Origin: Rhododendron vialii
Lineage: Eukaryota > Streptophyta > Magnoliopsida > Ericales > Ericaceae
Direction of reading: 5' to 3'
Assembly (NCBI RefSeq): GCF_030253575.1
Contig: NC_080566.1
Span: 9,309,501-9,373,500, forward strand
DNA: 64,000 nucleotides
Within the stretch, counting starts at the first letter, position 1; every line of letters starts with the position of its first letter. A program made the translations under genes and the position numbers. Positions 1,898 through 34,061 of this stretch are shown here, in pieces. The notes beneath the pieces were generated by a model. That model was given only the letters and a program-made list of their open reading frames with translations, made no database searches and was not told the DNA's origin.

Positions 1898-4800
1898 ATG
1901 GCAACTAACAACAAGAAAGACGAACCAAGTACAGCTCCTCAGGCCGATCGTTGGTATAACCTAACCCTAGGCTCCTCTTTCAAAGACCACCGTCCCTCCT
2001 CCAAGTTTTGCACTTTGCGCTGTAAATCTCTCTCTCTCTCTCTCCATATATATGTATGCATTTTTTTGCCATACGATAGTATGATAGTATAGTTAAGAGT
2101 ACAAGCTAACATCATTCCATCAACTTAAACCTGAAGCCTCACACACACTGACACCTAAGTGCCAACCCACTACCGCTTGAGCCGCAGCTGAGGGTCATTT
2201 ATTTATGCATGTTTGCGTAGGTTATAAAATTATTTGTTTAATTTTTGTTTTAACTATCCTGCCGTTTAAATGCCCATAAAGCTGAAAGGAAGAAAAGAAA
2301 AGAAAAAGAAAATATAATAGGATCTAAGATTCTGAGTATTTTTAGGGTTTTTTTTTTTTTTTTTTTGGGGGTGGGGTTGCGCGGGGGGGTTAAAGAACAA
2401 GAAATTTCATGTAAGAAAGAGTACAACAGTTTGCAACAGATGCTAGCTTACTAAAGAGGAGAAAAAGAGAGATGTGAGAGGATTAATCCTCTCCAAAAGA
2501 AACTGCTATCACCTGCAACTGCAACTCGACTTAGAATAAAAGAAGCCAAAGCTCTCACTTGGCTAACTCGTGAGCTGGCCGAACCTTATTACCAGAAACT
2601 TTTGTAATTCTGCAAATCGATCGCATTGATACTTCATTAGAAAAGTTTTGTGAACAAAACTTTGCCAATGTCGTGTTCAGGATGTCAAATACTGACCTCA
2701 ACTGGATCTGATAGTTGCTGTATAACCAATGGAATGAACCCTGTATTACGTTTCCCAAATCCACAAGTGAAACTTGTGATCAATACTTGGTATCTTATCC
2801 CTAGAGGGTTTGTAGTTTCAGGCGGAATTGAAATATGTTCTGTTCTTACTTGCCGAGCAAACTGGGGATAGATATTAGTTGGAAAGTTGCATTTGTTCTT
2901 CCTGTTTTTGTTCTTATGAATGGGTGACTTAGCTGGTTGCATTTATTTATTTATTCTTTTTAATTCTTCTTATACCAAGCTATGGAAAATCTTTTGTTTG
3001 GTTGTTATTTCAGAACCAGTTTTGCAGATATTTTCACTTTTTTACAAACAAAATCGCTCAATTGGTTTTTGAGAGTTTGGAAAGGTCATTTTTAAGGCCT
3101 TTTATCGAAAAGGCGGCGTCTTCTGAAAACTTATAGGAAACAAGTTTGAAATTGTCTAACAAAAAAGTTCTCTTTTGTTCAAAAAATTAGAACAAAAATG
3201 AAAAACGATAACGATACCAACCAAAAGCTATGTCAAATAAGGGTTGAGTTGTTGACCAATTTTATTTTATTTTATTTTTTGTTTCAGATGAATTTAAACC
3301 AGCTTCAATTGATAAGAACCAGGCCGGATCACTACACAAGAACAAGGACAACCGGGTTAGTGTGGAATTTCACAACAACCAGCCTGGAAAACCAAAAGTG
3401 ATCTTTGAGGGCAGTAGTGAGGATTACAAGGACAATGATGCAGTTTTGTTCTTTGATGGTCAGACCTTTCGGTTAGAAAGGTTGCATCGAGCAGTAAAGC
3501 GGTTGAGACATGTTAGGCAACCTGGTGAGTCTGCCGCTGGAGGAACTTCACTCGGACCAGCTGCAGAGTCTGGTTCACCGCCAGTCAGTAAAGTGGCTAA
3601 GTTGCAGCCTTTGAACAAGAGCATACCTCCTTTAATGCCGGTGAGTTTTTCAACATGGAAAAATTGTTTCTATCTTCATTCTACATGTTCACAGTCTATG
3701 TAGACAGGACAAGTTAGTTCAACTAAATTTGATCTACTGTAATGTCTGTGATCAAGAGATATTTGTTTGTATGATGATATGGTTTTTGTTAGGACTTAAA
3801 TTGAAGCTGCATGCTCAGGACGTCTATGATACCAATTTACAAGTTACAACTGTTGTTTTTCTATGACCATCTTAAGGAATCTTACTGCTTTTGGTGGGTG
3901 GAAGTTATGGAAGTAGGAACACGATGGACCTATATGGCTATATTTACTCGAGTAACGTTGATAAATTCAGTTCACACTTACGTAGTTTAAAGATCAGCAG
4001 CTTTATTATATTTGTACTTCTGTGAGTTCAGTATATATATATATATATATGTAGTCTATGAATTATAATGACTTCCAATAATAGTATGCAGTTTTTTAGG
4101 TAGACAACATGTTCGCTTCCAACCTGTACTATAATTTGTGACAAAGTTGCAGGCAACACTTTGGATGATCTGTTAATGACCACAGTCATCATTTCTACCT
4201 TGTTCCTTGGTCGAAAATCTGTTTCAGTAGCATCCCAATAAGCCTCTGAGTTCGCAGTCTCTCAATCACTTTGTGGAGTGAATAGACACATTCATGCTCC
4301 CTCGTTTCTTTTGTTGTAAGGTGTGAGATAATTTTGCTATTAGTTCGGAGGTTGATTATCTGGGTTTTTATTGGAATTAAGTAAAGTAACAAGTAACAGT
4401 TTTGCATTGGCTGTTTGCTGGACAATGCACATTGAGGTTCATGTTGAAATGGCAAACTTTATGTAACCATGTAGTAATTGAAAAGTAGGCATCAAACTAA
4501 TCGAAGATTTCAAGAGCAAATATGTGTTAGTAAGGAGAATGTTGATTAATCCATTTCAAGGCATCATCAAAGAATAACTGGAAAGAGTTTTGAAAAGCAT
4601 CATTTTGATTTGCTTGTTCTTAACGACATTCTTCTTGCAAATAAAGCCCTTACTGTTAAATATATACTGATGATGCATACTCATTTTATTGTGTACTTGT
4701 ACAGGTTGAGATTGAACGGATTGAAATTGGTGACTTCAAGAGCTTAGGTAAGTTTTGTTCTGATAGCTAAAATGATAAGATATAAACATCTTTGTCCAAA

Positions 4801-7712: not shown

Positions 7713-10555
7713 TCAGGCATGTTTCCCTCCTACTGGAGTTGGTGCTTCCTTTTCCTGTTCCACCTCATCAGCTCCTGAACCACCGATTTTTCCATTTTGT
7801 GACATCTTTTCTTCCGATGGCAAATCCACCTCTGTAAGTATTTTGCCATCTACATAACCACCACCACGCCAAAGGAACCACTCCCCAGGGAAGGGCGGAG
7901 CAGATGAATCTGCTAGAGGTGCCACCAATCCCGGCTTACCTTCATCAATAACTTCATCCACCAACCCGTATTCCTTTGCTTCCCAAGGATTCATGAAAAA
8001 CTCGTACCGACTGTTGCGTTCAATCTGCCAATAGAGAAGAAAATAAGTGATAATTGACAATTGGAGAAGTATAGGAAAGAGGGTATAGAGCATATTTGGA
8101 TGATTAACCTGCTCCACTGGCTTCCCAGTAACTCGAGACAATATTTTTATCAGCTTAAGCCCATGGTACATTCCTTCTCTTAAATGGATTTGAACTTGTG
8201 TTGGCTGGAAGGGCAACAGTTGAGTGAGAGATTTATGACTTCAATATATTCCACAACAAATAAATTTAAATTCTGCAAAGAAATATAGCCACACACACTC
8301 CGTAGAATTAGAAGAACGTCTAAATTCTAAACTACAATGATACCGAGAGCTTCACCTCCTTGCTGTTGTTTACCCCATCCCCCGTCCAGAAACTTGACTT
8401 CTTACTAAAAAAGAGCGACAAAGCTACCATGTTCCGGTATGTAAAATATCTTCAGGGCTGAAATCCCGAAGAATTGGAATTTATCAATGATATCAACTTC
8501 CATCTGAAATTCTTCAACATTTTGTCCAATAGATTCATGTCAGTGGAAATTTTTTGTTACATGGAGGGATACTTTCTCCAATTCTAATACCATCGTGGAA
8601 AAAAAATATAAACACACACACTAGAATGTACTTAAAGTTATTCTAGTCAAATTGAAACAAAGCCATGGCAGCAGCAGGTTCTAATGCAGAAAAACTAAAC
8701 AGGAAGGAAAACAGGATGCATTGTCCAAGAAATAAAACACACAACAAAGTAACATCAACTGTTTTCTTGGCCAACCACCAATGTTGGGCCACTTTGGTGC
8801 AATACTTGGATTCGAATAATAATGTTTGCAAGAAAACTATTATTGAGCAAGTTCCATTACCACATTCATTAATCATGAATTGAAGACTCAAGGAGGCAAT
8901 TGTAATACGGTTAACATAATTCAATCTCTTCTATTCTAGTTCTGTTCCTTCCCGATACAAAACCTCGATGGATTGCACAAAAATCAATGAATTAAATGAT
9001 ACTTCAATTTTAGTCATAATCAGTTACAGATAATTAAAGACAGAAAAACTCATACGTAATGGCTAATATAGGGTTAAAAATGTTATACATTACCAAAATA
9101 AGAAGAGTTTAACTTAATCCTAAACATAGGACCAGATGTCCATGTCCGACATATAAAGGAAAATGACACACTGCATACCCTACTCAACATGTGTTGGACA
9201 CCTATCTATCGTCTCTAAGCATTAATCTTATCAGAGATGCTTAGAACCACACGTGTCAATCATTTAAACACCCATGAATTAGCCTGCTATTCACTAAGAA
9301 AACAAAAATAATACCTATTAATCCCTATTGTATAATTTCTCCAACTCTACAAATTTCTAAACCTAAAAGCTTACAAAGAAATTAAAGTAACATAAACATT
9401 TAGAATAACTATCAGGTCTGGGTATCCCCACACTTACTTTCTAGCATGTAAAACCTGAAAGTGATTTTTTAGTTTTGACATCTTAATATATGAAAAGATC
9501 ATTTACGAAAAGTCACTAGGAATTTTACGTATAAAAGTATAATACTTGTAGTTGATGTATCCCATCCATGTTGCGTCCTGGTTTGGTTTTTTCAAAATGT
9601 CATGTCAGCGAGTCCATGTCATGTCTTATCTGTGTTTTTGTTGTCCGGACACATGCTTCATATTTCTTTCTCTTCGCACTTTTAATAAGAAAACAGATTT
9701 CATAGCAGCAAAGAAGACACAAAAGAACGAGGTCTGAACAAGGATTGCTGTCTGATCAAATCACAGGTGAGAAAAAAGTAGAACACAATCATGTACTAAG
9801 TATCTATCAGCCCAAGTATGAAAGCCAGAGAATGCTAGAGGTACTAAACAATCTTCTAAACGTTGGCCTAGGCGCTAGGCGGTGGTCCACCACCTCAACT
9901 AGGGTCCTAAGCGTTTCATTAGGTGGCGGGACGATTAGTCGACCACTAGGCGGCATTAGTCAGGTAAGTGGTATTATTAGTGGGGTAGGCGAGGACAAGT
10001 TGGTGGGTGTATTTTTTTATTTTTACGAACAGGGGTTTAAATATGTATTACTCCCTCCCTCCAAAAAAAAGCCGTCCACAAAACAAAATTTTTAATTTTT
10101 AAACTTTTTTTTTTAAGTTAAAAGAACTCGTCAATATCTAGTATCTTGTTGGGAAATAGCTTGAAATTATTTGAACAGAAAATGCATTTTTTAAGTTCTC
10201 GATTTACAGACCGAACAATCTTTCTGGGACAGAAGTAGAAGTATAGGTCTTGTTTGGTAACCATTTCATTTCCTGTTTTCTGTTTTCATTTTCAAAATTT
10301 TCAAAATTTAGAACCGAAAGTTTGTTTGGTTGTCTATTTTCATTTTTAAAAATTAAAATGAATTTTCTAAATTTTTGAAAATTGAGAAAGTACCAAAAGT
10401 CTACTTTCACTTCTTGTAAAAATAAAAAACCGGCTACCAAATCTGGAACACGCGTTCTGTTCCCCCTTATCTCATCTAAGTCTTCCCTTATCTCATTTGA
10501 GGCTTCCCCAGATCCATCGATCTCTCTCGATCCCACTGGTTTCAAGCGACTGAAA

Positions 10556-10597
<42 letters not shown>

Positions 10598-13500
10598 CTC
10601 GATCAATTTTGTTCTCGCCCTTCTTTGGATCTAGTTGAAGTCGAGAGCAATTATTCTTTGTAGACTTTGGAACTTATTGATTTAACTTGGTGATTTTGGG
10701 GTTTCTTCTGTTTCAACGCTGGGAAACTGGAGTTCTATGTGCCTTGCTTGGGTCACAGTCCAACTGCTAGATTAGGATGCGATCGATCTTCGTACAACAC
10801 TCCTCGGATTTCGTCACTTGTTTGATCGCTTTTTTGATTCATATTTCTAGATGCATTACACATATATCTGTAACCGTATTCGTTTATCGTACAGTTTCTC
10901 TATCAGAATTGCTTGTTACATTATCTCCGATCTCGTTACCAATTGATATGCATTACCGTTCTCCGATCTCGTTACCAATTCCGTTCATGGCTGACGGAGT
11001 AAGAACAGGACCAATTTCAGAAACCTCCTTCCAGGGGTTGGAAATTCATTTGAGTCCCTGCTGTGAATTATGTCGCCAGCTTAATAGGCATGAAATTGCG
11101 AAACTAACACCAGTACCATTAGCATTTTACCACATTATCAAGGGTTATACGATTTTTTTTTTTGAACCTCAGGTTATACGATATTTGCTTTAGCCTTGAA
11201 TTCTTTGTTTCTGTTTAAATTTGTTAAGTTAGGTCAAATTGAGGCTGTTGATCTAGGAGCTCAGTGTCTGATCTCACAAAAATGATGCTAGAAATAATGC
11301 TAAATAACTGAGCCCTCTTAGAATCATGAGATAGATGTTGTAATGTTAATACATCATCGATTTTCCCTTTTCATTAAACCAATCAATGATTTCTCAATGA
11401 TCCCTTCTGAAGTCTTTGTAGGTCGGTAGCAGATGGAACATAAAAGTTGGACTCTGGACAATCCAGCAGTTCTAAGGCAGCTAGTTTTTGATATACCTCC
11501 GATGACATTTTCATTTATTGCACATAAAGGAGAGGTGTGGCAACTTACACAATCAAATACTGGAAGCAACGAGATGATTAATTATGGGTGTATTAAAATT
11601 TGTTATGTTTTGACATTTCATGCCTTAGTTTCTCAAGTATCGATGTCCCTTCGACTTATCAATGAGATTTATTGAATCTATAGTTCTACTTTGCCCAAAT
11701 AAATCTGAGATCTTATTTAGACCAATTGTGGGGTGATTTATAAATAGGAAATGGCTACTAAAGGCAATGTAAGTATCAAGATTGAGGATGATGATGATGT
11801 TGAAGTGGGAGGTGTAGCTGATTCCCTGTGGTCGAAGAAAAATGAAGCTTTTTTTTATTGACATTATGGAGGAGGAGGTGAAAACAATGGGTAGTCGAGA
11901 TACTGGGACTTTTCAGATAAAAAGTTGGGCTAGGATGAGGAAGAGTCTTTCTACTAAAGCTAAATATGAATACTCTGAACTTCAAATAAAAAACAAGTTC
12001 AACCAACTATGCACTATGCACACCAAATTTAAGAGCCTTTGTGACCAAAGTGGCGTTGGGTGGTGTGCGGAAAAAGGTACTGTTACTGCTGATGATACCC
12101 TCTGGGAGAAGCTCTATAAGGTTAGAAGTGACCTATTCTCTTTTTATTTTACTCATGCTTATAAATTAAGTCTGATACAAGCCACTTTGTTCTTCACTTA
12201 GGTTAATAAGAAGGCCAAGCATTTCAGGAAAAAAGGTTTCCCACACTATGCAGCGATGACCCGAATACTTGGAGATACCACTGCAACAGGATTCAATGCT
12301 CACCCGTCAGTCCAATCCCCGTCTGGAACAGATAGTTCTGATCCCTCATTCCAACTTAAACAGGACAAAGATGGTGAAATAGAAGTAACTAACATAGTGG
12401 TTAGTGGAAAAGGCAAAAAGGTTTTTGATATGAAGGCTTTGAAGACTACTGAGCCAAAGGAGAGTAGCAAGAGTAAGAAGAGGGACTCATTGTCTGCGAA
12501 CCTCAGTGCATCTTTAAGTGCTCTTGCAGAAAGTAGCTAGAGGAAGGTGGATATCCTTGAAGCAAAGCATAATGCTAAGAGCACTAGTGTTAGTGTGACT
12601 TCCCAGGACCATGGTGAGCCACAAGGTCTGCTGGCTGCATGCATAAAAACTCTTAATGACATGGAAGACCTAGATGGAGCATCGTATACGAAAGGGATGA
12701 AACTACTGAAGGAGGACCCTTCATGGAGACCAATATTCCTTGGCATGTCAGAGCAAAGGAAGAAAGACTTCTTTGCATATGTGTGAACCTTTGTTTATGG
12801 TTGGTTTGGTTTAGGACATGGTTATGTAGTTGGTTTGTAAGCTTTTGTGGGTTGTAAGACTTATGTGATTGGTTTGTTTTCTCTTCTTGTTGGAGTACTG
12901 TTTGGATATGGAACTTTTGTGGTTTGTTTTCTTGTTGGACTACTGTTAATGGGCAATCTTTATGATCTCACTGGGCAATCTTCTATTTCAGCAATTTTTA
13001 GTACTTTGTTGGCCTTTTTGCAGTATACAATTATATCCGTATATTTATCTCCCTTCTTTGTTTCAATTATGTTCTACTTTTCCACAAGATTTAATGTGGC
13101 TACCATAACATTTCATTGAAGGTAATGGAAGTATCTAATGCTCAAAATGATGTCACTCTGACTCAGATAACATGGTCTTTGAAGAAGGCCAATCATCAGA
13201 GTCTGTCAACAATATATGCAAGTCTGCCGGCCATGTACATGACTGTGAAAGCTCAGACACAATCTCTCTCAAGTTGGGGTTAGTTAATTTCTTGAAAGTT
13301 ATGTTGTGTTTCTGGATTTCATTGACTTGAAGCATCTTTCTTATGTTATTTTAGTCATTCTTTTAACATACGCCTTTGAAGTTTGAAGCATCTTTTTTAT
13401 CGCCATCTAGAATAAAAAATGTGATGCCTCTAACTGATGCAAATATGGGCCATCTAGGATTACTCGCTCTGGTCTCCTAAACCATAAGGATCATTGTACT

Positions 13501-16500
13501 TGCATGATACAGTAGTTAGGCTCCATTGTATTTAGTTCGTGTCACTGTCGTATGCCTTGTATAGCTCATAAACAGGGACCAAATTAGTAAAGCTAAAAGC
13601 ATTAGGTTATCTTAAAAGGATTGGTCATGCTTTGGACTTGATCATTTAGAAGTAGACATATTATTCAATATAAAAAAACAGTTTCTAATCGACCGAGTTT
13701 ATGCTGAAATAGAAAAACAGTAGTTTAGACTGTCCTTCGTATTAACATTTCCAGTTGATTCTGTGCGTTCTCTTTTAAGTTCAGTAATGGTTAGATTTTT
13801 GGAGTAATATTGCTACAGGCTTTGTTTCTTGCTATAGATTGATAGACCTGCATATAGTTTACTACTATTCTTGGCTTCAGTACTTTTGAAATCACATGCT
13901 CAAATTATGCAGTAACTGTGTCAGATTATCCTCTTAACAGTGAACATCATCTTATGATCAGTTCTTTTTTTTTTTTTTTTGATCCGTATGATCAGTTCTT
14001 CAATCTAGCAAATTTTGTGTATGCTACTTTTTTTTGTAGCCAAATGGAGTCTAGCGATGATAGTGACAAGGAATTGGAGTCTGATTCAGATGACGAAACA
14101 ATAATCACATTGGTTACCCTAGCACTACATGAACATCATCAGAAATACTATAATCGTATTCCATGTTGAACCTCTATATTAAGAGGACACGAATATGTAT
14201 TAGAGGTTTTGAATGGTCATGATGCAAGGTGTGAAGAAGGTTTTCGAATGGAAACACATGTTTTTATTGCATTTTGTGAGGCGCTTAAAGTACACACTGG
14301 GTTAAAGCATTCAAGGTACTTAACAGTTCAAGAGCAAGTATGTATATTTTTGCTCGTAGTTGGACACAACAGTAGAAATCGCATAATCCAAGAGCGATTC
14401 CAGCATTCCGGGGAAACCATCTCTAAGTATTTTAAACGAGTATTAAAGGCTATGTGTAAGCTTGGGAAGCTCATTATTCAACCCCCCCCCCCCCCCCCCC
14501 CCCGTCCCTCCAGAGATTATGCACAATCCAAAGTACTGGCCATTCTTTAAGGTATTATGATAAGTTTCAGTAATCCCTTCTCTATTTCATATTGCATATT
14601 GTATTATAAAATTGTCTAACATTTAGTTACATTTACTTGTGTCCTTGGTTGTAGGATTGTATTGGTGCTATAGATGGTACACATATCGATGCAAAGGTTC
14701 CTGCTCGTGAGCAAATTCCATACCGTGGGAGGCACAAGACCACGTCACAAAATGTAATGGCTGCATGTTCATTTGATATGAGATTTACTTACATCTTGTC
14801 GGGTTGGGAGGGAACGGCAAATGACTCACGAGTGCTTTTTGAGTGTGTGAATAATCCAGCAATGGAATTTCCTATGGCACCTCTAGGTAAGTACTTCTCT
14901 AGTTTTTTTAGTCACAAATTAGGAAACTGTGAACACATATGAGGTCTTGCTGCCATATTCTTTTACTTTTTTAGGCTTATTTTTGGCATGTGGTCGATTA
15001 ATTTGTCACCTACTTTATAGGTAAGTACTATGTGGTTGATTCGGGATATCAAAATATGCCTGGGTTTCTAACGCCATACAAGGGTGAGCGGTACCACTTG
15101 TCCTTGTTCCGTGGACGTGGACGTAGACGATTACCTACGAAAGAAGAAGAATGGTTCAATTATCGTCACTCGTCCCTTCGCAACGTGATAGAGCGCTGCT
15201 TTGGCGCATTGAAGGCACGATTTCCTATCTTGAAACAAATGCCTAAAGGCTTTAGTGTGCGGACCCAAAAATATTTGCCAACCGCTTGTTGCACAGTCCA
15301 CAACTTTATAAGGATGCATGACAAAAATGATGCAGTGTTCAAATTCTATAGCAAGGAAGATTTGATTGTTGAAAGTGAGCAAGGCCGTAGGAGCTCTTCT
15401 CAACAGATCAATGTCACCCCCGCTCAATTGCGAGAAATGGCTAGAGTTCGCAATACTATTGCCCGCCAAATCTTTAATAGCCAAAGGCTTTGATGCATTG
15501 GTAGTGAAGCATCCATTGCAGCAGTGGTAAGAGACTCCAAAGGCAGAATTGTCCATTGGCAGAATTGATAGCATTTTACAAGGATGTTTTGACAGCTCTT
15601 GTTTCTTTGTCAGAATTCATGTTTTTGTACTTTCCTTACTTGCTTTTATGAGACTATGAGAGTGATTGGAGTGGTTTGATTTTCTGTTTGACAATAGATT
15701 GGTTTGATTCAATCTGACGGTTAGATTGGTTTGATTCAATTTAAATTGTCCAATAGCAGAATTGTTCTAACACCCCCCGTATCGTTTGGAAATTAGTGGA
15801 GAAATTACAAGAGAGACATTTTTAGGAAAAGTAAAAACTGGTTTTAGAAATTTTTTTTTTTTTTTTTTTGAAAACAGGTTGACACAAACATATTTTCTGC
15901 TTTCACTTTTTTTTTTAGGAAAAGTAGAAATTGATTTTAGCAAATAGAAAACTAAAAACAGAAAAGTGGCAGTGTTACCAAACATAGCCATAATGGACTG
16001 GGTGTCAAGTATTATTTTGCAAAAAAATAATTATGTAATGACTTCTGACTTCTGAGTCAGACAAAATCCCCAAATCGCAGCAACGCAAACCTCTGGTAAA
16101 GTAGTAATTATAACCAAAAAGAAGGAAGCAGCACAACAAATGAATGTTCCCTCTCATAAAATGTAGGATGATGAAGAGTCGAGAACTTAAAAAATAGTCT
16201 GCAAAACTAAACATTAAAGTATTTGATTTTAATGGATGGATAGATGGATCATTGTTTGATGTTTCCATTTTGGATGTAATTCAATATTTTGTTCCACTTA
16301 TATTGTTCAACTTACTCAAACTTTGGGGAGGGGCCGGGGGAAAATACTTTTTAAAAAATAACAAAACCGACTAATCTCTAGGCACTGACTAATCGGCGAC
16401 TAGTTGGCCTGAGGTGCCCCTCTACCGCCCACAATCGCCTAGCGACTTTTAGAACCATGGTACTTAATTGATGAGCCACACAATGAAGGTGTGGCTGAGT

Positions 16501-18916
16501 TGTTGAGTATTGCCTAAGAATGATGACAATTGTACCAGAGAATCTATTGGGGTTTATGCCTCGTAGATCAATTATGGAAGCAGTCTACTTTTTAAAGAAA
16601 GAAGTCGAACAACAAAAAGAAACCAAGTACTTACTTCTTCTTCACCATCATCATCATCATCAGCATATCCTTCTGGCCTTTGAATCATCACCCTTGAATT
16701 AGGCATGCAAAACCTTTTCCCTTTGGTACCAGTAGCAAGGATAAATGCAGCCATGGACGCAGCAAGCCCCAGGCAAATAGTAGAAACATCAGCTTTGCAT
16801 AACTTCATAGTGTCATAAATTCCCATTGCTGCACACAAGCAGTAGTAACTTAAATGAAGAATGTTATGTAGAAAAAAGAAGACTAGGAGCTCTTCAGTGA
16901 TAGAGAACTCTTGGAAATCTTCGGTAATAAAGGACTCAACATCTTCAAGAATCAAGATTCGACATGCGACAATTTAATTTTTTTTGTTACTGACATGCAA
17001 CAGTTATGATAACAAGCCAAAGTGAGTAACTAGACACAAGTTACCAGTAGCACGTTTGAGCAAAATTGTTTCACAAAGTTCCCAAGAAACATGCACGTTA
17101 TATCTATGAGGACCAAAGTTGAAATAAAATTGAATGCATGATGAAGAACACCAAAGCATACACATATAATGTTTTTCACTGCATTGACGGGATATTCTCT
17201 TAAGGCCAGAAAGGAGATTTCAACAACAAAAACAAAGGAATACCAAATGAATATCATTGGACAAGTAAAACAATAATACAAACAAGATAACTTTCGAGTC
17301 GCACATCAAATATTAAACTCCAACACATACCACAAGGTTAAATTATGGATCTCATCATTGATTTAGGCTATTAGCAATCTTCATGCTTCACCTTCAGTAC
17401 ATGCTTTTTTGCTTTGGAAACTGTGCACGTCATAGCACTTCGAATTGAATGGACAAATTGAGGATGCTACATGTTGACCTTTATTTTAGTATGGTGAATT
17501 GGTGACCTCCAACTCAGTTGAGTTATACTCGTAGCCCATAGGAGTTTATTGCATGCTAAAGCAAATTTGAAACAGCCAATAAAGTTGCTGCATGGACTAC
17601 AATTTACAAAAAGGAGTCTTGCAAACCCCACTTATGGAGATCCATAGTGATATACCAGAGAGAAATTTCTTCAATACTTATGATCCATAGAAACTAGAAT
17701 GCCATTATTTACAGACACAAGACATATTTTAACGGGTTGCCATGGCAATAAGTGGCTTTTCTTATTACTGATTTTTAAAAATTCCATTAGCTAGTAAAGT
17801 TTGATTATCAAAAAACCCTTCATGAATATGGTCCAAAGCCTTGAGACAATCAAAAAATTTGCCCAATTGGATTAGCCTACTCATACGTCCAGATAAGAAC
17901 AGAAGTTAACCATGATCAGCTCAACGTAGAGGGGGAAAGTGAGGAAGCAATAACAGGACCAATGAAGAGATAGGCATACCGCCAGTTGAAGAGCCACCAG
18001 GTGAATTGATGAACAGTTTAATGTCCTTGTTTGAGTCTTCGGCATCCAGGTACAAAAGTTGACCTATGATGAAATCTGCTGTATAGTCGTCAATCTGCCC
18101 ATTATCAAGTGATTTCCACAGATTAACAGCTAAAGCAACTATCTCAAACTACAGATATGAGTCAAGGGAAGAAAGAGAGGAGCTGGGAACAAAGCTAGAC
18201 TTGTCCCTGATGCTTTCACAGACCGCATTCCAACATTAATGAGTGAAACAGGACTATGCTGATACTATGCATAAAGGCACCGGTTTCATTGGTCGGAGTG
18301 TCAGACTATTAAAGAAGTGATACAGATACTAACTAATAATCACAAAAGAAGAGTACTGACGACTGACAATTCCAGAACTCGAAGGTATTCCATATCCTTT
18401 GTTTTATTGAATTAGTTGGCCAAGTAATAGGTAATCTCTTGTTGCATTCAAACACCGGAAATAGCCTAATCCGGCAAGCAAACAGACCCAAAGCATCCAT
18501 ATTTCAGGCACAAAGAATCCATTCATTTGAAATCATTCAGACACAGTCATCACTCAAGGCTGGCAAAACCCATTTCGCAGACATTTCAATTAGGACACAA
18601 AATATTGTGAACTGAAACAAATGAGAAAAAAATATGGCCTAGAATAAAATAATAAACAAAAGTCTCACGCAGAAAGCCCCAGTAATGAAGTAAGAGGGCT
18701 AAAACTATGTAGCCAGAAGATCAGAACAAGCAAGCCCAATCTCTAAAATCCCACTTTTACCAACAGAGATGTGAGAGTTTTAGACAGAGTCTTATATACC
18801 TGGGTCATTCCCCAAACCTATCAGCCACAAAATGATGAGAAATGAAAACAATCATGAAAGAATGCCTAAATGACATATTTAAGGCACAAAACCAAGCATC
18901 TGGAAAATACCAATTC

Positions 18917-18956
<40 letters not shown>

Positions 18957-20746
18957 ATACCTCACAAAACCCATTTCCCAAAACTCCAGCCACAGAATGC
19001 AGCAAAATCAAAACAATTAAGAAATAAAGCCAAAAAAATGGATTGCTTAAACCAAAAAAAAAAAGCAATGGGGTAAGAGAGCGACAAAGATGGAGCCAGT
19101 AGAGTAGAATTACCAAAAACCATCTCAGAAGTACAATTCCACAAACGGAGAACTAGGTGAGAGAATGTCCTGAAAACACAAATGTTCATGCCACAAAACA
19201 AATCAATGAAGCATGCGAGCTTCAAAGATGGACCCCTCTATTAGAAGTTTAGAACAATTTCAACACCTTCCCATTTCTTACTTAATCTGTTCCAACTCAA
19301 CGCATTCCTTTGTCCATGGAGTACCATGAATGAACAGAAAGAACTATATCAGAGTTTCTCTTATTTGTATTAAGAGCTACTCTAGGAGAAATACTTTTAT
19401 GGGGTGCTAATGATTTAATAAGTTCCTATGTTGTACCTCAACTAAAATGTTTTCGGTTTTTTCGTCACATGTTAGAAGAAATTTACACACCAACCTAACG
19501 CTAACTCAACCTATTATAAGAAGAGTATCAGCATACTCTCCGCTGGACCTACGATCTCACTGCACCTAAATGCAACTACATAACCGCTAAGCTAATCAGT
19601 TCAGAATGTTTTCATCTAATGCTCAAACTATTTTATTTTTTTGATAAGTTTGAGCAAAACCCATCTTAGAAAAAACCCAAATTGTAGACAGGGAACGGGG
19701 CCGGTGCTGACATCTTGGGGACCTAAACGTATATATGAAAATGATGCCGTTTATGCATTTTACAAACAAAATAATAAACAGATATGGGAACTTTATAAAG
19801 CAAAATTTCAACATGATATACAAAAAAATTAAAACAAGTAATTAAAGTATCACTCTTCCTGCATTTCTAGTGTCAAAAGAACTAATTATGCTCATATAAT
19901 CAATTTCACTTATAGGTCCCATTCTCCCTAAATTTTTTGCCTGGTATTCTTTTCAGCATTTTCACTTTTAGCAATTTTTTATTTAGCCTTTTGTCGTTAT
20001 TTTTTAGATTAATCACTTGTCGAGGAATTAGAATGATATTAAAATATGGACTGAAGTTGAAAAAGTTAAGGGAAAAAAAAAAAATACAATACCACTATAC
20101 CAGCTGTTTATTTTTGCTTTTGGCATAATTTTCAATTTTTAGACTCCTCCAGTGGAAAACGGAGGATTAATCCAAAACACTATAAATGTGACATAACAAA
20201 ATTTCAGAAAAGATGAACAAAAATAGCAAAATATAAAATATAAAAAATTTAGAGAGAATGAGGCCTTACTGAATACTCCAAATACACATTTCTAGTGGGT
20301 TCTCATTTTAGCAAAATTTCGGGGGCCAAAAGCGAAAGCTTTGTTCGGCTTTGCTCACGTACCGAAAAGTGCGAGTTTTACACAGGCCAAAACAATTAAA
20401 ACAAAAAACAAAAAAGAACCCAAAATACCTCATTACCCAAGAAGACAATTCGCTGGCGGAGAAGCATGTTGGTGGGATCGAGCTCTTCGAATCTGGGCAG
20501 CCAAGAAGGATAAGAAACGGCAGGGGAAACGGACCCGACATTCCAATGGCTGTTCACGGTGCGGTTTCTTGCAGGGAAGCTCTTGCTCGATGCTTTGACG
20601 GACAAGGGACGGCTGCTTCCTCCGCTGCTTCTAGTGGTCAAGGGGTATGAGTAGTAAGTGGTGGATTTGGTGTGGTTTTTCCGGGTCTGTTTTGAATAGA
20701 AGGCCGTGGGGGTCGAAGGGGCTGACGCTATACAACCCCAGTCCAT
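7713..20746 (-). CDS. CLPP3-like: Plastid Clp protease subunit, ClpP3-like, with degenerate active site
   Basis: The predicted protein has 344 aa in five minus-strand exons: 20746-20429, 18094-17980, 16828-16635, 8204-8109 and 8024-7713. All introns are GT-AG and phases agree. The first ~70 residues are Ser/Thr/Arg-rich like a plastid transit peptide. The Clp core follows: [28 protein letters not shown], the nucleophile motif GLAASMAAF, then MIQRPEG and [38 protein letters not shown] and the extended C-terminus resemble Arabidopsis ClpP3 (about 309 aa from memory). ClpP3 is a subunit of the heptameric P-ring of the stromal ATP-dependent Clp protease. Here catalytic Ser is present, but the His of MIHQP reads Gln and the Asp of D-R-D-x-F reads Glu (RYEFF). 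A run of five Asp encoded by GAT repeats follows the lost His. The protein may be a ClpR-like structural subunit or a decaying paralogue. Family certain; activity doubtful. Confidence 0.88.
8205..10245. other. ClpP3-like intron 4, portion before the Harbinger element
   Basis: This is intronic sequence with no supported coding exon. At about 9862-9965 there is a GC-rich word set (GGCGCTAGGCGG, CCACTAGGCGGC, GATTAGTC). It recurs in inverted orientation near 16365-16460, on the far side of the Harbinger element. TACTCCCTCCCTCC at 10049-10062 looks like one end of a Stowaway MITE; its partner was not found. Confidence 0.4.
11751..12786 (+). pseudogene. Harbinger ORF1, Myb/SANT-like DNA-binding protein (broken)
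   Basis: A trihelix Myb/SANT-like domain is readable: [34 protein letters not shown] and LWEKLYK. It continues across an 81-bp GT-AG intron (12121-12201) into [14 protein letters not shown]. In PIF/Harbinger elements this protein binds DNA and helps the transposase. Two lesions are visible. A run of eight T at 11849-11856 puts the first 30-odd codons (from ATG 11751, with a DDDD acidic stretch) out of frame with the domain. An in-frame TAG at 12538-12540 cuts off the conserved tail, which resumes in the same frame to 12786 ([20 protein letters not shown]). The assignment is firm; it is not functional as read. Confidence 0.8.
14044..15493 (+). pseudogene. PIF/Harbinger DDE transposase (HARBI1-like, broken)
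   Basis: Exons 14044-14551, 14655-14886 and 15021-15493 read as a plant Harbinger transposase. The N-terminus has [31 protein letters not shown] and the helix-turn-helix region. The catalytic part has AIDGTHI (first Asp), [11 protein letters not shown] (second Asp) and [13 protein letters not shown] (Glu), so all three catalytic residues remain. The C-terminus ends in the usual ACCT(V/I)HNFIR region plus a tail. Two lesions sit in the N-terminal half: TGA at 14167-14169, where CGA is expected after IPC, and a 22-base C run (14482-14503) that shifts the frame before [13 protein letters not shown]. The DDE half is otherwise intact, which suggests a fairly recent insertion. Confidence 0.85.
16518..16623 (+). 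pseudogene. LINE reverse transcriptase fragment next to ClpP3-like exon 3
   Basis: Plus-strand translation gives [20 protein letters not shown] followed by [12 protein letters not shown]. This resembles the plant LINE reverse-transcriptase block ENQFGFMPGRSTMEAI with its downstream helix. Only about 35 codons are recognisable. The fragment ends about 12 bases inside the intron, next to the splice donor of ClpP3-like exon 3 on the other strand. Similarity is by eye and covers one short block. Confidence 0.45.
16829..17979. other. ClpP3-like intron 2
   Basis: AT-rich intronic sequence between exons 2 and 3. I see no ORF, repeat pair or RNA gene in it. Confidence 0.4.
18095..20428. other. ClpP3-like intron 1 with (AG)n microsatellite
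   Basis: This 2.3 kb intron contains a (GA)17 run at 18918-18952. The remainder is AT-rich and I recognise no exon or element with paired ends. Confidence 0.4.
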
Positions 20747-24880: not shown

Positions 24881-25071
24881 GTCTCAAAAAATTAAAATAA
24901 TTGGGTGAGAGTGATTTGAGAGAGGGGGGAATTGAATGAACTGGATGAGCCATTAGGAGACGTGGCGTTCATCCGTGGCGTCTCCGCACAATCAGTTGTA
25001 CACGGCCCCTCCGTTGTAATACCAGCCTCACATATATTTAAATCCGCTAAATTTGGAAAGTGGGATTAAAA

Positions 25072-28000
25072 ATGGCGAAATTCTCGGTGGGAAGAGAAGA
25101 AGACGATAACGAAGGACCCAGCAGTCCAAGGCCCAAGAAACGAAGAACAACATGCTATCAATCCCAACGACAACAACGGGAAAACCTAACCCTAGACCAA
25201 CAGGAACAAGAAGAAGAAGTGGAATCCGAATGTGATGAACAAGGAGAAGAACAAGATGAAGAAGAAGAAGAGAGAGAATCTGAACATGCTGAGGAAGAAG
25301 AAGAAGGTGAAGAGGAAGGCAATGAGGAGGAATCCGATTGGGCTAACACGGGTTTCCAGTCGATTGGCGATCGGGGTTCGGCGGGACCCAGTGGAGATGG
25401 GTCCATTTGCGTAACCCTAACGGACCCAGATGTGCTTGATTGCCCCATTTGCCTCGAACCCTTGAATAGTCCTGTTTTTCAGGTATGTTTTGTTTTGAAC
25501 CATTCGTTTTGGTGTTTTCCCTTTGGATCGAAAGCAAGGGCGAGAAAAGGAAAGGAAGAAGAATCCTATGATTCCTATCAAGATAACTCGAAGATGTTAA
25601 AATGGTGAGAGAAAGTTGAGAAATTTAGGAGTGTATTGGCCAAATAATCAAGCCCGATTAGTTTTTTGGTCTTTATTCAATTTTTTTCGCATTTGTTAGA
25701 TTTGGGTCAATTTTTTTTGGGTTATTGGTTCGTGTGACGTAAGGAATATAAAAAGTAAAATATCATTAACCAAACTGATTTTTATTTTTTTGTATAAAGA
25801 CAAAAATAGGTTTTCCCAACAAAGATGGGTTTTTTTGTTGTTATAATTGGTCCTTTGTTGTTTGGTGTTTTCCCCGTTGGATTGGAAGATGGGGTTAGAA
25901 AAGAAAAAGGAAGAAGAATCCTATCAAGATAACTAGAAGATGTGAAAATGGTGAGACAAGGATGGAAAATTTAGAAACAAAGATGGGTTTTTGTTTATTG
26001 GTCCCTTTCTGTTTGGTGAGAAACCAGGACTCTTTCTTTTCTATCCTTTTCTCGCAATCTAAAGGGCTAAGGTTTTCTGTTTTACTAAAAGCGCTGTTTT
26101 TCCTTAGTTTGTCTTACTGCCCGAGTGTGTTCTGTTAGGATTTATATGGTAATAACACAGATTGAGCAGACAGTTGCTACAACGTTTACAAGAAAATCAT
26201 GATGTCCATGACTAGGGGCTCGATCAAAGAATCTCTGAGTGCAATCGTATTAGGGCTTTGTTCGGTCTTTGATTATGTGGTGTGGATGCTGATTTTTTTA
26301 CCCTCACTAATGGTGGGATTTGCTCATTAAGTGTTGATTTGGAGGACGTGATTATCTGATAAATAACTTGTTCCCTCTGTAAGACAAAACTCCATCAGTG
26401 ATACATTCGATCGGAATGCCCTCCGATGGTTAACTTAATCACTCAAGGAATAGTTGTCTGAGCACTCAAAATATCTGTAGGAAGTGAGTGAGAAAAAGAT
26501 AGTAATTGCTCACAAAGTAAGTGCCAAGTTTTTCAATCCCTTCGTTTGTATTTGGATCTCCTATTCATCAGCGAATTGGTTAATCACTCAAGGAATAGTT
26601 GTCTGAGCGCTCAAAATATCTGTAGGAAGTGAGTGAGAAAAAGATAGTAATTGCTCGCAAAGTAAGTGTCAAGTTTTTCAATCCCTTCGTTTGTATTTGG
26701 TTCTCCTATTCATCGGTGAATTGGTTAATCACCCTCAGGCTGGTTACCCTATTGTTAACCACGGTCAAGTGTCATCATTACTATCCTTTTCTGAGATCTT
26801 TGCATGCGGCTCTGGATAATGCCCTTATGCCCATGCAGCTACCTGTCACATCAGTCCCCTTTTTTTATTGGTTGATGCGATGTAAAGTGATAACTTCTGG
26901 GGTGCACGCTCTACCGCTTGGTAACCGTAATTGTGTGTCTGCATGTTCTGTCCCCATTCGAAAAGCTATCATCCTTGTCAGACTAAGATGTTGTATCATC
27001 TTTCCCTTGTTCATTGAGGGGGATTTAGGATGCCGAGGTCATATCCTTGGCTAAGTACTACTGAAGTTACCATGTGCTGAGATACCTCATCGGCTCTTCA
27101 CTTCTGATGTCTTGTTCTCAGTCATTTGCTTTCTGGCCATTTGCACAAAGCTGAGCAATCCCTCTATTACTCCCTTTGTCTCTTTCACCTTAATTTTCTT
27201 TGCCTTTATACTAATAAGTATTAATAATCCCTATGATAATTTCACTCCTTGCATATGAATATCAAGAACCGAAGGTGAAGATTTCTTAAACTGAAAAGAC
27301 TCGACCAATGCAAAAGGAGGAGAGGACTTGATACCATAAGCAGCAGATGGAGAGAGGTGGGCTGTGTTATGTTCGTGATGTTGGACCTTGTGGTAGTGGG
27401 TAATAGAAAACTCGATTCCATAACAGAAAACTTGATTTGCGGAGGCTTAATGCACAAGGTAGTTCTATAGCTGTCATCTTGGGTGAGTGCATTGGAGTTT
27501 CTGGGTTGGCACTTGGATGGAAGATTAGGAGAGCTGGATGTGCTAGTTTTGGAGGCTAAGGCAGTACAGAAAATTAGCCTAAGATCCAAAAGTAGATGCC
27601 TAAACTCACATTTAGTCTAGCCTAAATTTCTGTAATGTGTAGAGTCCATTAATGAAAATACTTTGGAGTCTAAGGTCCCTGAAAAGACAAAATTGCCTTT
27701 AATGAAAATGCCAACTCAGCACATGGGAATACTTGGACATGGGCGCCTTTCATTGTTACGGACGGATGGAAAAAAAAAAACTACCTGATCGAGTCCGGCT
27801 TCGTCCATTTCCACCATTTCTGACCGATCGAGTCCGAGTCCGAGTCCGGCATCCCTCGTCGTTTTGCACCATTACCCTCGCCACACAAACTACCGCAAAC
27901 ATCTCTGACCAGCCACTAGCATTGTCAGGAGTTGTCGTCCCATTGGAAGTCGCCGGAAATTCACTTGCAAATTACAGTCGCCGGTGACCAGTGCTAATGT

Positions 28001-31000: not shown

Positions 31001-34000
31001 CTATAGAAGTGCATTAGGCCAGCGCCTTAGCCCTTGGTTGTCCCTCAACCAATTCACCTTGCCTCAAGGGTTACAAGTTGCTACAGTGGCATTTTGCCTT
31101 GGTTCGCTTCGAGCCTTAGTGTGCTTTCTAGAGCACAGAGAGGAATAGTGGTTCACTTGAGTAGTTGGTCCTATGCAATCAGCGAGGTAATCTTAGCCAA
31201 GAGCGTTTAGGGGTTTGTTTTCGATTTTGTCTTTCCGGTTCTGCTCGGTGTTTCTTTTTCGGTTATGGTTTTTTTTGATCGAGGAAATCGGTGTTAGGGT
31301 GATATTGTTGTTGTTTCCTGCGGTGTTAGTAGAGGGAGTTTTATCTTACTTAGGGGATGTGGTTTTTGGCCTTTCGGTTTTCTTCGGCTGTTTGTCTTGG
31401 TCTGTCTTGGTTTTGGTTGATGGTGGGGATTTTGTTTTTTGGTTTTGAGGCTTGTTTAGGTTTGTGGCTGCCTCCTAGTTGGATTCGGCTGGGTTTTCTT
31501 TTGTGCTTGGTTGGCATCTTGCCTTCCCTTAGGTTTTGGGTGGCTTTGTGCCGGGGTGCCCTTGATCCTTTTAATCTTTGTAATTCTTTATAAAGATTAA
31601 TTAATCTTTTTGGTTAGCCAGAAAAAAAAAAAAAATTTGTGTATGATGAAGAATTTGCTTACATTGGTCCACAAAATATGAGAACCAAGCGAAGTGAGGA
31701 AACACCATCTAGGGAGGAAAGGGAGCTTACGAGGTTTCGTTTAAGAAGCACGGATACGGATACGATACAATATGGATACGCAGATACGTGATTTTTCCAA
31801 AAAAAAGGATACGATATGTTGGGGAATATAAAAGTAAATAAAAAATATATTATATATATAATTATTAATTTCATTAATGATTTAAAGTTTTCCATTACAC
31901 AAGTTCACCATTTCACATGCCGAGAGAGATATATTTACATCTAGCTTTATATAATTGTATCTATATACTTATATATACATACACACAATGAGAGAGGGAG
32001 AGATGTGAGAGAGAGAGAGACTTACAAGGTTGTCGAGAGAGATGAGAGACAAAAGAGAGGATATCTTCCGTGTGTTTCTAGTGTCGATTGGTGAGAGAAG
32101 AAGAAAAATATAGTTCTAATTGCAATTCTAACCCATTTATTTTAAGTAATAACATATTTACCCTCGCGCGTATCCAACACGTATCCGCGCATATCCGAAA
32201 TGTATCGGGATATCAAAAAATAATTCTAAAAGCAGGATACTTTGAAAAATGTATCAGATACGTATCCGGAGAGTATCGGTATCCGATACAAATACGATAC
32301 GTGATACGGAGGCCAAAATAGAATATCTGTGCTTCATAGGGTTTCGTTGCTCGGTGTATTTGATGGTCAAAAGGCATGCAATGGGGCACCGTGGTAAGAA
32401 GCTGATCAGTGCTTTTTTTATTTCTATGGATGAGTTTTGGAAGCAATCTAAGGAGGGGGAGGTATGTGAATCAACATTCAGTGAAAGGGTTCTGGACTCC
32501 CTTAACATGATTTTGTTGTCTATTTAAGTATGGTGGTCTCAAGAATGCAAAATAGCTTTATTTCCTTATTCTCTATCAACGAGGAGGGTTAAATAATAGC
32601 TTTATTTCCTCATTTTTCTCTATTTTTGTCATGGCAAATATAAGGAATTTGAGAATTGGATATGTTTTTCTATTTACGTTCATCTAAATCAGTACAGATG
32701 ATAGCCATTATATGGGCAAATGATATACAATACAGCAATGAGCTAATATGAATTTGTCTCTTTTATGTTGAAGCCTTATATCGAATGATCTTTACAAGAT
32801 CTGATGATACTATGATGTGATCTGAGCATTCAAGGAGTGGGTCTGGTTGCATTTGGATCGCTCACCAGGAATGTGGTCTATATGTTTGCCTCCTTATGTC
32901 CTCTTTCAAGCTTAATAACTTTTACGATATTAGTTTCCACTTTTCTCTCTCATCAACTGTATGTGGTTGCACATTGTAAATTTGTAAATGTTACTAGTTT
33001 TTCCAATGAACCATTTAGGTTCGTATAACCTCAGGCATTGAGTGAAAAGCTCTGTTTGCATGGTTCCCAACAAACAGATAAGTACGATTGCCATTAGGTG
33101 CTAAGTGCTATAGACTATATGGAGCATGAAAGCCCGATATAGAATTAGAAACAAATTTCTGACAAAATTGCCACATGATATACTATACCATTAGCATTCA
33201 CATGGAGGATTGACCACATAAATAGTATTTGAAGCTGTTTGCAGTAGTTGCTTTTTGATGTGATTGCATTTAACTTCTATCGGTGATACTTTTGTGACTA
33301 CTTATAGCAAGCTTATCCGGGAATACAAACAACTCTAATGTGTTTTCTCTTGCTAAATGGCAATTCAGTGTGAGAATGGACATATCGCATGCTCTTCTTG
33401 TTGTATCAAGCTTGGAAACAAGTGTCCCTCCTGCTCTTGGCCAATAGGCTATAACCGTTGTAGGGCTATTGAGAAGGTCATCGAATCGGTCAAAATATCA
33501 TGCATAAACATCAAGTATGGGTGCAATGAATCAGTGAGTTACAACAAGATTCATGACCATGAGAAGATGTGTATCTATGGGCCATGTTCCTGCCCACTTT
33601 CTGGATGCAACTTTATTGGATCCTCCAAGGATATATTCCTTCACTTTAGCATCAACCATTTGAATTCAGCTAAGCGCTTTCAGTACAACTGCCTCTTCCC
33701 GTTAGAGTTGGGTGTGGGACAGAGGTACCTTATTCTTCAAGAGCAAAATGATCGCACGACTTTTGTTCTCAATCATGGGGTTGAACTTCTGGGAAATGTG
33801 GTAAATGTTATCTGTATTGCGCCAAGCTCAACACAGAGAGGGTATTCATACGATCTCATAGCTAGAAAGGAGGACAGCTCCGTGAGGCTACAATCTTTCA
33901 CGGAGAGTATACCTCGATGGGATGAACATCTTCCTCTGAAGATGTTCCTGCTAGTTCCAAGTGATTTTCGTGGTTTTTCTGGGAAGCTTAAATTGGAGCT

Positions 34001-34061
34001 CTGCATACGGAGGCCTCAGGATGCTCCTGCACCCATCTTAAGAGGTAATTGTGTTATTTGA
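25072..34061 (+). CDS. SINA-like RING-type E3 ubiquitin ligase
   Basis: The predicted protein has 367 aa in two exons, 25072-25482 and 33369-34061, joined across a 7.9 kb GT-AG intron. Residues 1-110 are a disordered acidic region with long Glu runs and a basic patch (PRPKKRR). The RING finger is split by the intron: CPICLEPLNSPVFQ, then CENGHIACSSCC and CPSC. A SIAH-type second zinc-binding region follows (CNESVSYNKIHDHEKMC, CPLSGCNFIGS, HFSINH), then a C-terminal beta-rich substrate-binding half. Proteins of this plant SINA-like class transfer ubiquitin to target proteins; the substrate here is unknown. The start is the ATG at 25072; an upstream in-frame GTG at 25060 is not credible in a plant nuclear gene. 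The TE-derived arm just upstream may influence its transcription. Confidence 0.88.
25505..26060. repeat. Tandem duplication at the start of the SINA-like intron
   Basis: A block containing TTTGGTGTTTTCCC, GGAAGAAGAATCCTATCAAG and AAATGGTGAGA occurs at 25505-25625 and again at 25860-25977. A partial third copy of the preceding words (ATGGGTTTTTGTT...GGTCC) occurs around 25985-26020. The copies differ by substitutions and small indels, so the duplication is not very recent. Confidence 0.6.
26436..26726. repeat. 145-bp tandem duplication in the SINA-like intron
   Basis: Two head-to-tail copies, 26436-26580 and 26581-26726, both start TAATCACTCAAGGAATAG. They are nearly identical across 145 bp (only a few substitutions seen), so this is a young duplication. 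Confidence 0.85.
26727..28680. other. SINA-like intron, middle part
   Basis: No supported exon. A GC-richer patch at about 27730-28080 contains a short tandem of CGAGTCCGAGTC words and ends in a (CT)n run at 28082-28111. It looks like 5'-UTR or gene-fragment sequence, but I cannot assign it to a family. The remainder is AT-rich. Confidence 0.35.
28690..29480. repeat. Three tandem ~270-340 bp repeats in the SINA-like intron
   Basis: The word GTTGATTTTATTG followed by GGAGCACATATTTCG appears at about 28709, 28981 and 29322. Each is followed by GAGATAACCTTAT and, further on, ATCCTATGA and GAAATTTTATG. The second unit is longer because of an extra stretch around 29090-29150 (GTTTGATTTGGTTTGG). 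Looser related words occur upstream from about 28390. Confidence 0.7.
29497..29612. repeat. 34-bp direct repeat pair
   Basis: A stretch beginning AGAAAGGACGACTAGCATCT and ending CATTTTGT occurs at about 29498-29532 and again at 29579-29612, about 82 bp apart. The surroundings are GC-richer than the rest of the intron. Confidence 0.7.
29613..31000. other. SINA-like intron, unassigned stretch
   Basis: No supported exon or bounded element. A minus-strand open frame (29778-29389) is discussed as a weak gene-fragment candidate in the findings. The remainder shows no paired repeats that I can support. Confidence 0.3.
31000..31634 (+). mobile_element. Probable 3' end of a truncated LINE
   Basis: A GT-rich sequence ends in TTTGTAATTCTTTATAAAGA, GATTAATTAATC and a 14-base A run (31621-31634). 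This is the appearance of a plant L1-type LINE 3' UTR with its poly(A) tail. No reverse-transcriptase domain is present, as expected for a 5'-truncated copy. The left limit is a guess and no target duplication was found. Confidence 0.4.
31742..32339. mobile_element. Mutator-type MITE rich in GATACG words
   Basis: Ends TAAGAAGCACGGATAC and the inverse of CTATGAAGCACAGATA are flanked by a perfect 9-bp duplication, GGTTTCGTT (31733-31741 and 32340-32348), the length typical of Mutator-like elements. Arrays of GATACG/CGTATC words occupy both sub-terminal regions in opposite orientation. The 598-bp body has no transposase. Confidence 0.75.

Follow-up and report, generated by a model that had tools for sequence, protein, structure and literature searches.

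What becomes of a subunit of the plastid Clp protease when residues of its catalytic triad are lost is the question raised by a gene of Rhododendron vialii, located in a stretch of 64,000 nucleotides (NCBI RefSeq assembly GCF_030253575.1, contig NC_080566.1, positions 9,309,501 to 9,373,500 of the forward strand), hereafter referred to as the window and numbered from its first letter. This gene encodes ClpP3, contains the nucleophile Ser of the triad, and carries substitutions at the positions of the His and the Asp. Its structure, its residues, and its place among the other Clp genes of the genome suggest, with a probability of about two in three, that the only intact ClpP3 found took on a structural role like that of ClpR, as part of a broader disappearance of active sites across the plastid Clp core.

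Gene model and active site of the window ClpP3

The gene is encoded on the minus strand, from 20746 to 7713, and its spliced model consists of five exons and four introns, both borders of all four introns being GT-AG. Exon 1 (20429..20746) carries the ATG and the N-terminal leader, ends at the donor GAG/GTATTT, and was also recovered by a protein search of the genome. It is followed by exon 2 (17980..18094), exon 3 (16635..16828; donor GAA/GTAAGT), exon 4 (8109..8204), and exon 5 (7713..8024), which runs to the TGA stop ending at 7713. A sequence-only reading of the locus had given the gene as 7990-16830, which accounts for exons 3 to 5 and falls short of the full extent, exon 1, exon 2, and the stop having been added here. 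Its statement that frame and splice sites are intact was borne out, as the predicted product of 344 amino acids (coding length 1035 bases) is open from ATG to TGA. The Pfam domain CLP_protease, tested on three pieces, matched exon 3 (1.9e-23), exon 2 (2.8e-12), and the piece 7713-8240, in which exons 4 and 5 were read through with their intron translated (1.2e-7). In addition, the nearest solved structures were ClpP chains (top 7eko_C, 4e-47). The first 40 residues, in which a transit peptide would lie, contain 35% Ser/Thr and one acidic residue.

The three triad positions fall within a single open frame. The nucleophile was indeed retained as Ser169 in GLAASMAAF (codon TCC, 16755..16757), and the triad His is replaced by Gln194 in MIQRP (codon CAA, 16680..16682), both as had been read from the sequence. 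The Asp is lost as well, and the stretch R-Y-E-F is found as described, in RYEFF before NPWEAKEYG. A Tyr at the Asp position was rejected, because only a gapped alignment places it there; aligned without gaps from where exon 4 begins, the position is occupied by Glu249 (codon GAG, 8001..8003), a conservative change. Among bacterial ClpPs, Ser and His were present in 80/80 and Asp in 79/80 sequences, these being the best 80 of at least 579 confirmed candidates and therefore biased towards conserved sequences. Similarly, all three residues occurred in five of five further comparators, namely Arabidopsis ClpP3 to ClpP6, whose sequences are provisional here and in all comparisons below, and one Chlamydomonas chain. 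Since its triad His is Gln and its Asp is Glu, the window ClpP3 is predicted to be unable to cleave peptides.

The changes extend beyond the triad. An alignment from which insertions were dropped contained 49 columns that are at least 95% identical across the 80 bacterial ClpPs, 32 of which are retained by the window ClpP3 and 40 by Arabidopsis ClpP3. At the latter 40 columns, nine changes were found (G69A, L98I, H118Q, Q119R, G126E, A128P, N146I, R166Y, and D167E; alignment columns), among them the Gln after the His and the Arg before the Asp. The GG of SPGGS is retained. An active-site shell, drawn post hoc, holds six of the nine changed columns versus six of the 31 kept ones (Fisher p = 0.012). 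Furthermore, the last 11 codons of exon 3 (16667-16635), of which codons 201-209 (16635..16661) read DDDDDGEEE, form an acidic loop that is six residues longer than in ClpP2, ClpP4-A, ClpP4-B, and ClpP5-A of the same genome and five residues longer than in ClpP5-B. The distance from Gln194 to Glu249 amounts to 55 residues, versus 49 from His to Asp in tea ClpP3, as given in PMC8831552 (triad S182-H206-D255). An acidic stretch past the His loop also occurs in ClpP5-B (contig C13), in the exon with MIHQPMGEIEDGDIEDMEIQ.

The protein is 64% identical to Arabidopsis ClpP3 versus 47% to ClpP4 and 46% to ClpP5. The CLPP3 peptide quoted in PMC6508832 matches the Arabidopsis sequence used here except for an engineered Ala. 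Like the window protein, tea CsClpP3 is 344 amino acids long; the window gene differs from these plastid ClpP3 proteins in its His to Gln and Asp to Glu changes, its altered conserved neighbours, and its longer acidic loop past the His. The comparison with ClpP3, ClpP4, and ClpP5 thus places the protein nearest to ClpP3, and, separate ClpR-like loci being present in the genome, it is not assigned to a ClpR lineage. It resembles plastid ClpR1-4 in having the ClpP fold without a complete triad, and differs from them in being a ClpP3 sequence that keeps the Ser and has an SPGG loop without the ClpR-type insertion.

ClpP3 copy number and the other Clp genes

A genome of 532.6 Mb in 13 contigs was searched both with the window protein (21 matches; 34/34 candidates scored) and with the Pfam domain CLP_protease at the exon level (29 exon matches; 48/48 candidates scored), and no second intact ClpP3 was found by either search. 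A primer pair for PSY of Rhododendron molle (PMC5067439) fits this genome at C10:36.15 Mb, the forward primer exactly and the reverse primer, which by our reading lies past the stop codon, with one mismatch; the implied product measures 228 bp, versus 229 bp as reported. Together with the chromosome number (13), this makes it very probable that the genome is that of a Rhododendron. Five of the 21 protein matches were the exons of the window gene itself; the next were six ClpP4/ClpP2 exons with 38-43% identity, and shorter Clp-exon matches reached up to 62% (ClpP4 exon 1). A hidden or alternative exon restoring MIH was rejected, as searches of the window and of the genome with the protein yielded no further copy of exon 3. 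A weak exon-1 match at C4:20742577-20742672 (E 0.008) was considered as a second ClpP3 and rejected. It reads TWLPRF-stop-EFDAVNALLRQRIIYLD, with one internal TGA, adjoins a CT repeat, and looks like a decayed ClpP3 exon 1. The window gene being the sole intact ClpP3 found, it therefore fills the ClpP3 place itself. Consequently, the suggestion that it is a degenerating duplicate, next to another ClpP3 with intact His and Asp, found no counterpart in the genome. The description as a ClpR-like subunit from the ClpP3 lineage agrees with the open frame, the GT-AG introns, and the clustering of losses at the active site; the word new does not apply, as this gene is itself the sole intact ClpP3 found and a triad residue is missing from four further plastid-type P genes too.

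Indeed, when Clp exon matches were assigned by the Arabidopsis sequences, a full triad was present in only one of the six plastid-type P genes of the nucleus. On contig C11, ClpP4-A has Asp instead of Ser (GLAVDTAS) and keeps His and Asp, and ClpP4-B has Arg instead of His (MMRQP) and keeps Ser and Asp. A Gln replaces the His (MIQQP) in both ClpP5-A (C1) and ClpP6 (C5), with Ser and Asp kept. Only ClpP5-B (C13) has all three residues, so that five of six genes lack at least one. The models of ClpP4-A and ClpP4-B are both open from ATG to stop; those of ClpP5-A and ClpP5-B are open across six joined core exons, N-terminal ClpP5 exons being present; and the partial model of ClpP6 has its pieces in order, two of them being weak matches. 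Stops flagged by the Pfam search in the ClpP6 and ClpP5-A matches fall outside the exons as read. The conserved columns retained were 34/49 in ClpP4-A and 33/49 in ClpP4-B (Arabidopsis ClpP4, 38/49), 35/45 in ClpP5-A and 37/45 in ClpP5-B (Arabidopsis ClpP5, 42/47), and 29/44 in the incomplete ClpP6 (Arabidopsis ClpP6, 34/47). Two ClpP5-like fragments reading MIHQP (C5 4.83 Mb and C11 23.8 Mb) consist of one short region each, and no further ClpP5 exon was found within about 5 kb on either side; they were therefore not counted as genes.

Separate ClpR-like loci were found as well, namely a ClpR4-like one (C7 14.12 Mb) and a ClpR3-like one (C5 28.1 Mb), together with two further loci in which the Ser is replaced by Asn (C7 11.86 Mb) or by Gly (C5 11.64 Mb). 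The ClpR4-like locus reads STIMIR and QPMDE on adjacent, unjoined exons, resembling the MMRQP of ClpP4-B. Four tandem genes with intact triads (C4:33783340-33827903) are presumably ClpP2-type, judged by the reading of their exons.

No nuclear clpP1 was found with a provisional Arabidopsis ClpP1 sequence at E up to 1 or by Pfam, searches that a very divergent copy could escape. Rate variation of Clp has reportedly been treated by Williams et al. in 2019. Regarding the plastid gene, several papers describe clpP as not identified in the plastome of R. kawakamii, with other plastomes of the genus having it "extensively missed" (PMC8330798), as a pseudogene in Arbutus and Vaccinium (PMC3832540), and as being among the fragments or pseudogenes in six Vaccinium plastomes (PMC9751094); clpP is not mentioned in PMC9670778. 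According to further sources, neither of the two known CLB19 editing sites, of which one lies in clpP, is present in Rhododendron (PMC5992886), a two-intron clpP is retained in Enkianthus (PMC12446880), and plastid clpP1 is cited as having coevolved with the nuclear subunits of Clp (PMC8889267). Among the matches listed from the open-licence literature, no earlier description was found of nuclear ClpP genes in Ericaceae that have lost triad residues.

Selection, decay, and competing explanations

The ratio of nonsynonymous to synonymous substitution rates (dN/dS) was computed with bootstrap intervals for the ClpP4 pair, the core of the ClpP5 pair, and three pairs of ClpP2 exon 2. The ClpP5-A/B core (dN 0.257, dS 0.729) has a ratio of 0.35 (0.24-0.51) and is under constraint. 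ClpP4-A/B (dN 0.112, dS 0.140) has a ratio of 0.80 (0.52-1.32), made up of 0.61 (0.33-1.15) for the mature part and 1.46 (0.77-4.30) for the leader. The three ClpP2 pairs ranged from 0.47 to 0.89, with wide intervals. In neutral simulations, 97 changes left 11% of ClpP4-B sequences stop-free, and 5% change left 11% of window ClpP3 sequences stop-free, or 0.06% with indels at an assumed rate.

Several points weigh against a structural ClpP3 retained within a reduced catalytic core. The ClpP4 pair is not separable from neutrality by dN/dS. At 2% neutral change, the window frame survives in 44% of simulations without indels and in 5% with the assumed indels, and at 1% in 66% and 24%, respectively; the open frame therefore counts against long neutrality and not against recent loss. 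The active-site shell was drawn after the data had been seen, and two of its six changes (G126 and A128) adjoin the insertion, where the alignment is least sure. Loss of ClpP3 need not be lethal, because Arabidopsis clpp3 nulls grow on sucrose, as stated in PMC6508832. Finally, several Ericaceae retain a divergent intronless clpP, expressed in two of them, the loss being contested in PMC4958920, and passages of PMC7183307 give three named pseudogenes and an absent ycf1 for the R. delavayi plastome and do not mention clpP.

Part of this evidence would also suit a young pseudogene or a fully relaxed gene, in which catalysis was lost first, the rest is to follow, and ClpP3 has become superfluous to the Clp core. 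Such an explanation, which is unlikely, would account for the losses at conserved positions, the acidic codon repeat, the transposon pieces in intron 3, a ClpP4 dN/dS not below 1, and an open frame that by simulation is compatible with a short neutral period; the decayed exon-1 match on C4 suggests in addition that an earlier ClpP3 copy died. It is countered by a start, borders of all four introns, a frame, and a stop that are intact over 1035 bases, by the 31/40 conserved positions that are kept and the concentration of six of the nine losses by the active site, and by the gene being the sole intact ClpP3 found, given that Arabidopsis clpp3 nulls stop growing as seedlings, at the cotyledon stage, unless sucrose is supplied (PMC6508832).

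That an intact ClpP3 is missing from the assembly, the window gene being a dispensable paralogue, is decidedly improbable. The assembly comprises 13 contigs only and unplaced sequence may be absent, which leaves room for such a copy; the exon-level Pfam and protein searches of the 532.6 Mb speak against it. That some catalysis persists, in weakened or changed form, through Ser169 acting together with Gln194 and either Glu249 or another acidic residue close by, is very hard to credit, for all that neither Ser169 nor the GG of SPGGS has changed and Asp to Glu is conservative, as Gln cannot serve as general base, the His is invariant in the bacterial set, and the Gln after the His and the Arg before the Asp have changed too.

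Intron 3 (8205..16634; 8.4 kb) contains transposon pieces on the plus strand, which by their domains are presumably of the PIF/Harbinger type: matches to Pfam DDE_Tnp_4 in two frames (14655-14942 and 15002-15493) and an open reading frame of the Myb/SANT-like kind (Myb_DNA-bind_3, 11818-12201). These pieces are flanked on both sides by an exact inverted repeat of 17 bp (10186-10202 and 16179-16195), with no evident target-site duplication. An origin of the acidic insertion from this transposon was considered and is unsupported, as the sole bracketing inverted repeat found, which may not mark the true element ends, stops 440 bp short of exon 3. Elsewhere in the window, an open frame at 3248-3700 (plus strand) presumably resembles a plant ELL-associated factor, and those at 25051-25605 and 33357-34058 (plus strand) resemble what we take to be SINA-type RING ubiquitin ligases.

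A proposed plastid Clp core with fewer catalytic sites

If the window ClpP3 became a structural subunit, it would be imported into the plastid, fold, and occupy the ClpP3 place of the P-ring without cleaving peptides, and ClpP5-B would carry the remaining active sites. The Arabidopsis core has ten sites of these subunits, with P1:P3:P4:P5:P6 = 3:1:2:3:1, and an inactive CLPP3 (S164A) fully complements the null, whereas CLPP5 S193A does not, according to PMC6508832. Hence, CLPP3 activity is dispensable and CLPP5 activity is needed in Arabidopsis, which fits the pattern of loss found in R. vialii. The S164A protein, which assembles and supports normal growth (same source), is likewise a ClpP3 whose triad does not function; it differs in carrying an engineered change of the Ser alone, whereas the window ClpP3 evolved changes of the His and the Asp and kept the Ser. 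With the Arabidopsis stoichiometry, at most three P5 positions would be active, in addition to any ClpP1 or newly recruited subunits. Regarding the order of events, either a change in clpP1 may have relaxed or reshaped its nuclear partners, or redundancy of sites may have allowed stepwise loss. A natural triad loss is also known from the plastid clpP1 of Acacia ligulata (Asp to Val), which is transcribed and spliced (PMC4425659); that case concerns a single plastid gene and the Asp only, whereas the losses described here affect all but one of the six plastid-type P genes of the nucleus.

A more far-reaching version, in which the Rhododendron core was rebuilt with inactive ClpP1, ClpP3, ClpP4, ClpP5-A, and ClpP6, old sites kept by ClpP5-B, and a duplicated ClpP2 recruited to the plastid, is quite unlikely. 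ClpP2 is normally mitochondrial. The second to fourth of the tandem ClpP2 genes (C4 33.79-33.83 Mb) possess 29-33 extra residues, starting with MATLQ, ahead of the region to which the beginning of gene 1 can be aligned. The first 40 residues of genes 2-4 contain 25%, 30%, and 23% Ser/Thr, respectively, and those of gene 1 contain 18%, the values being 35% for the window ClpP3, 35% for ClpP4-A, and 25% for ClpP4-B. The first charged residue is residue 18, 19, and 10 of genes 2, 3, and 4, respectively, and residue 2 of gene 1; a late first charged residue is no marker of a plastid leader here, because ClpP3 and ClpP4 have one at position 2. The MATLQ leaders thus look new and may be weakly plastid-like.

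In this genome, five of the six plastid-type P genes lack a triad residue, and the complete one is a ClpP5, the subunit that Arabidopsis needs in active form. It thus resembles an experiment of nature on which sites the plastid Clp core requires. A structural role of the window ClpP3 would show conversion of ClpP into ClpR-like subunits in several genes within one genome, and would link the absence or divergence of clpP1 in Ericaceae plastomes to changes in its nuclear partners.

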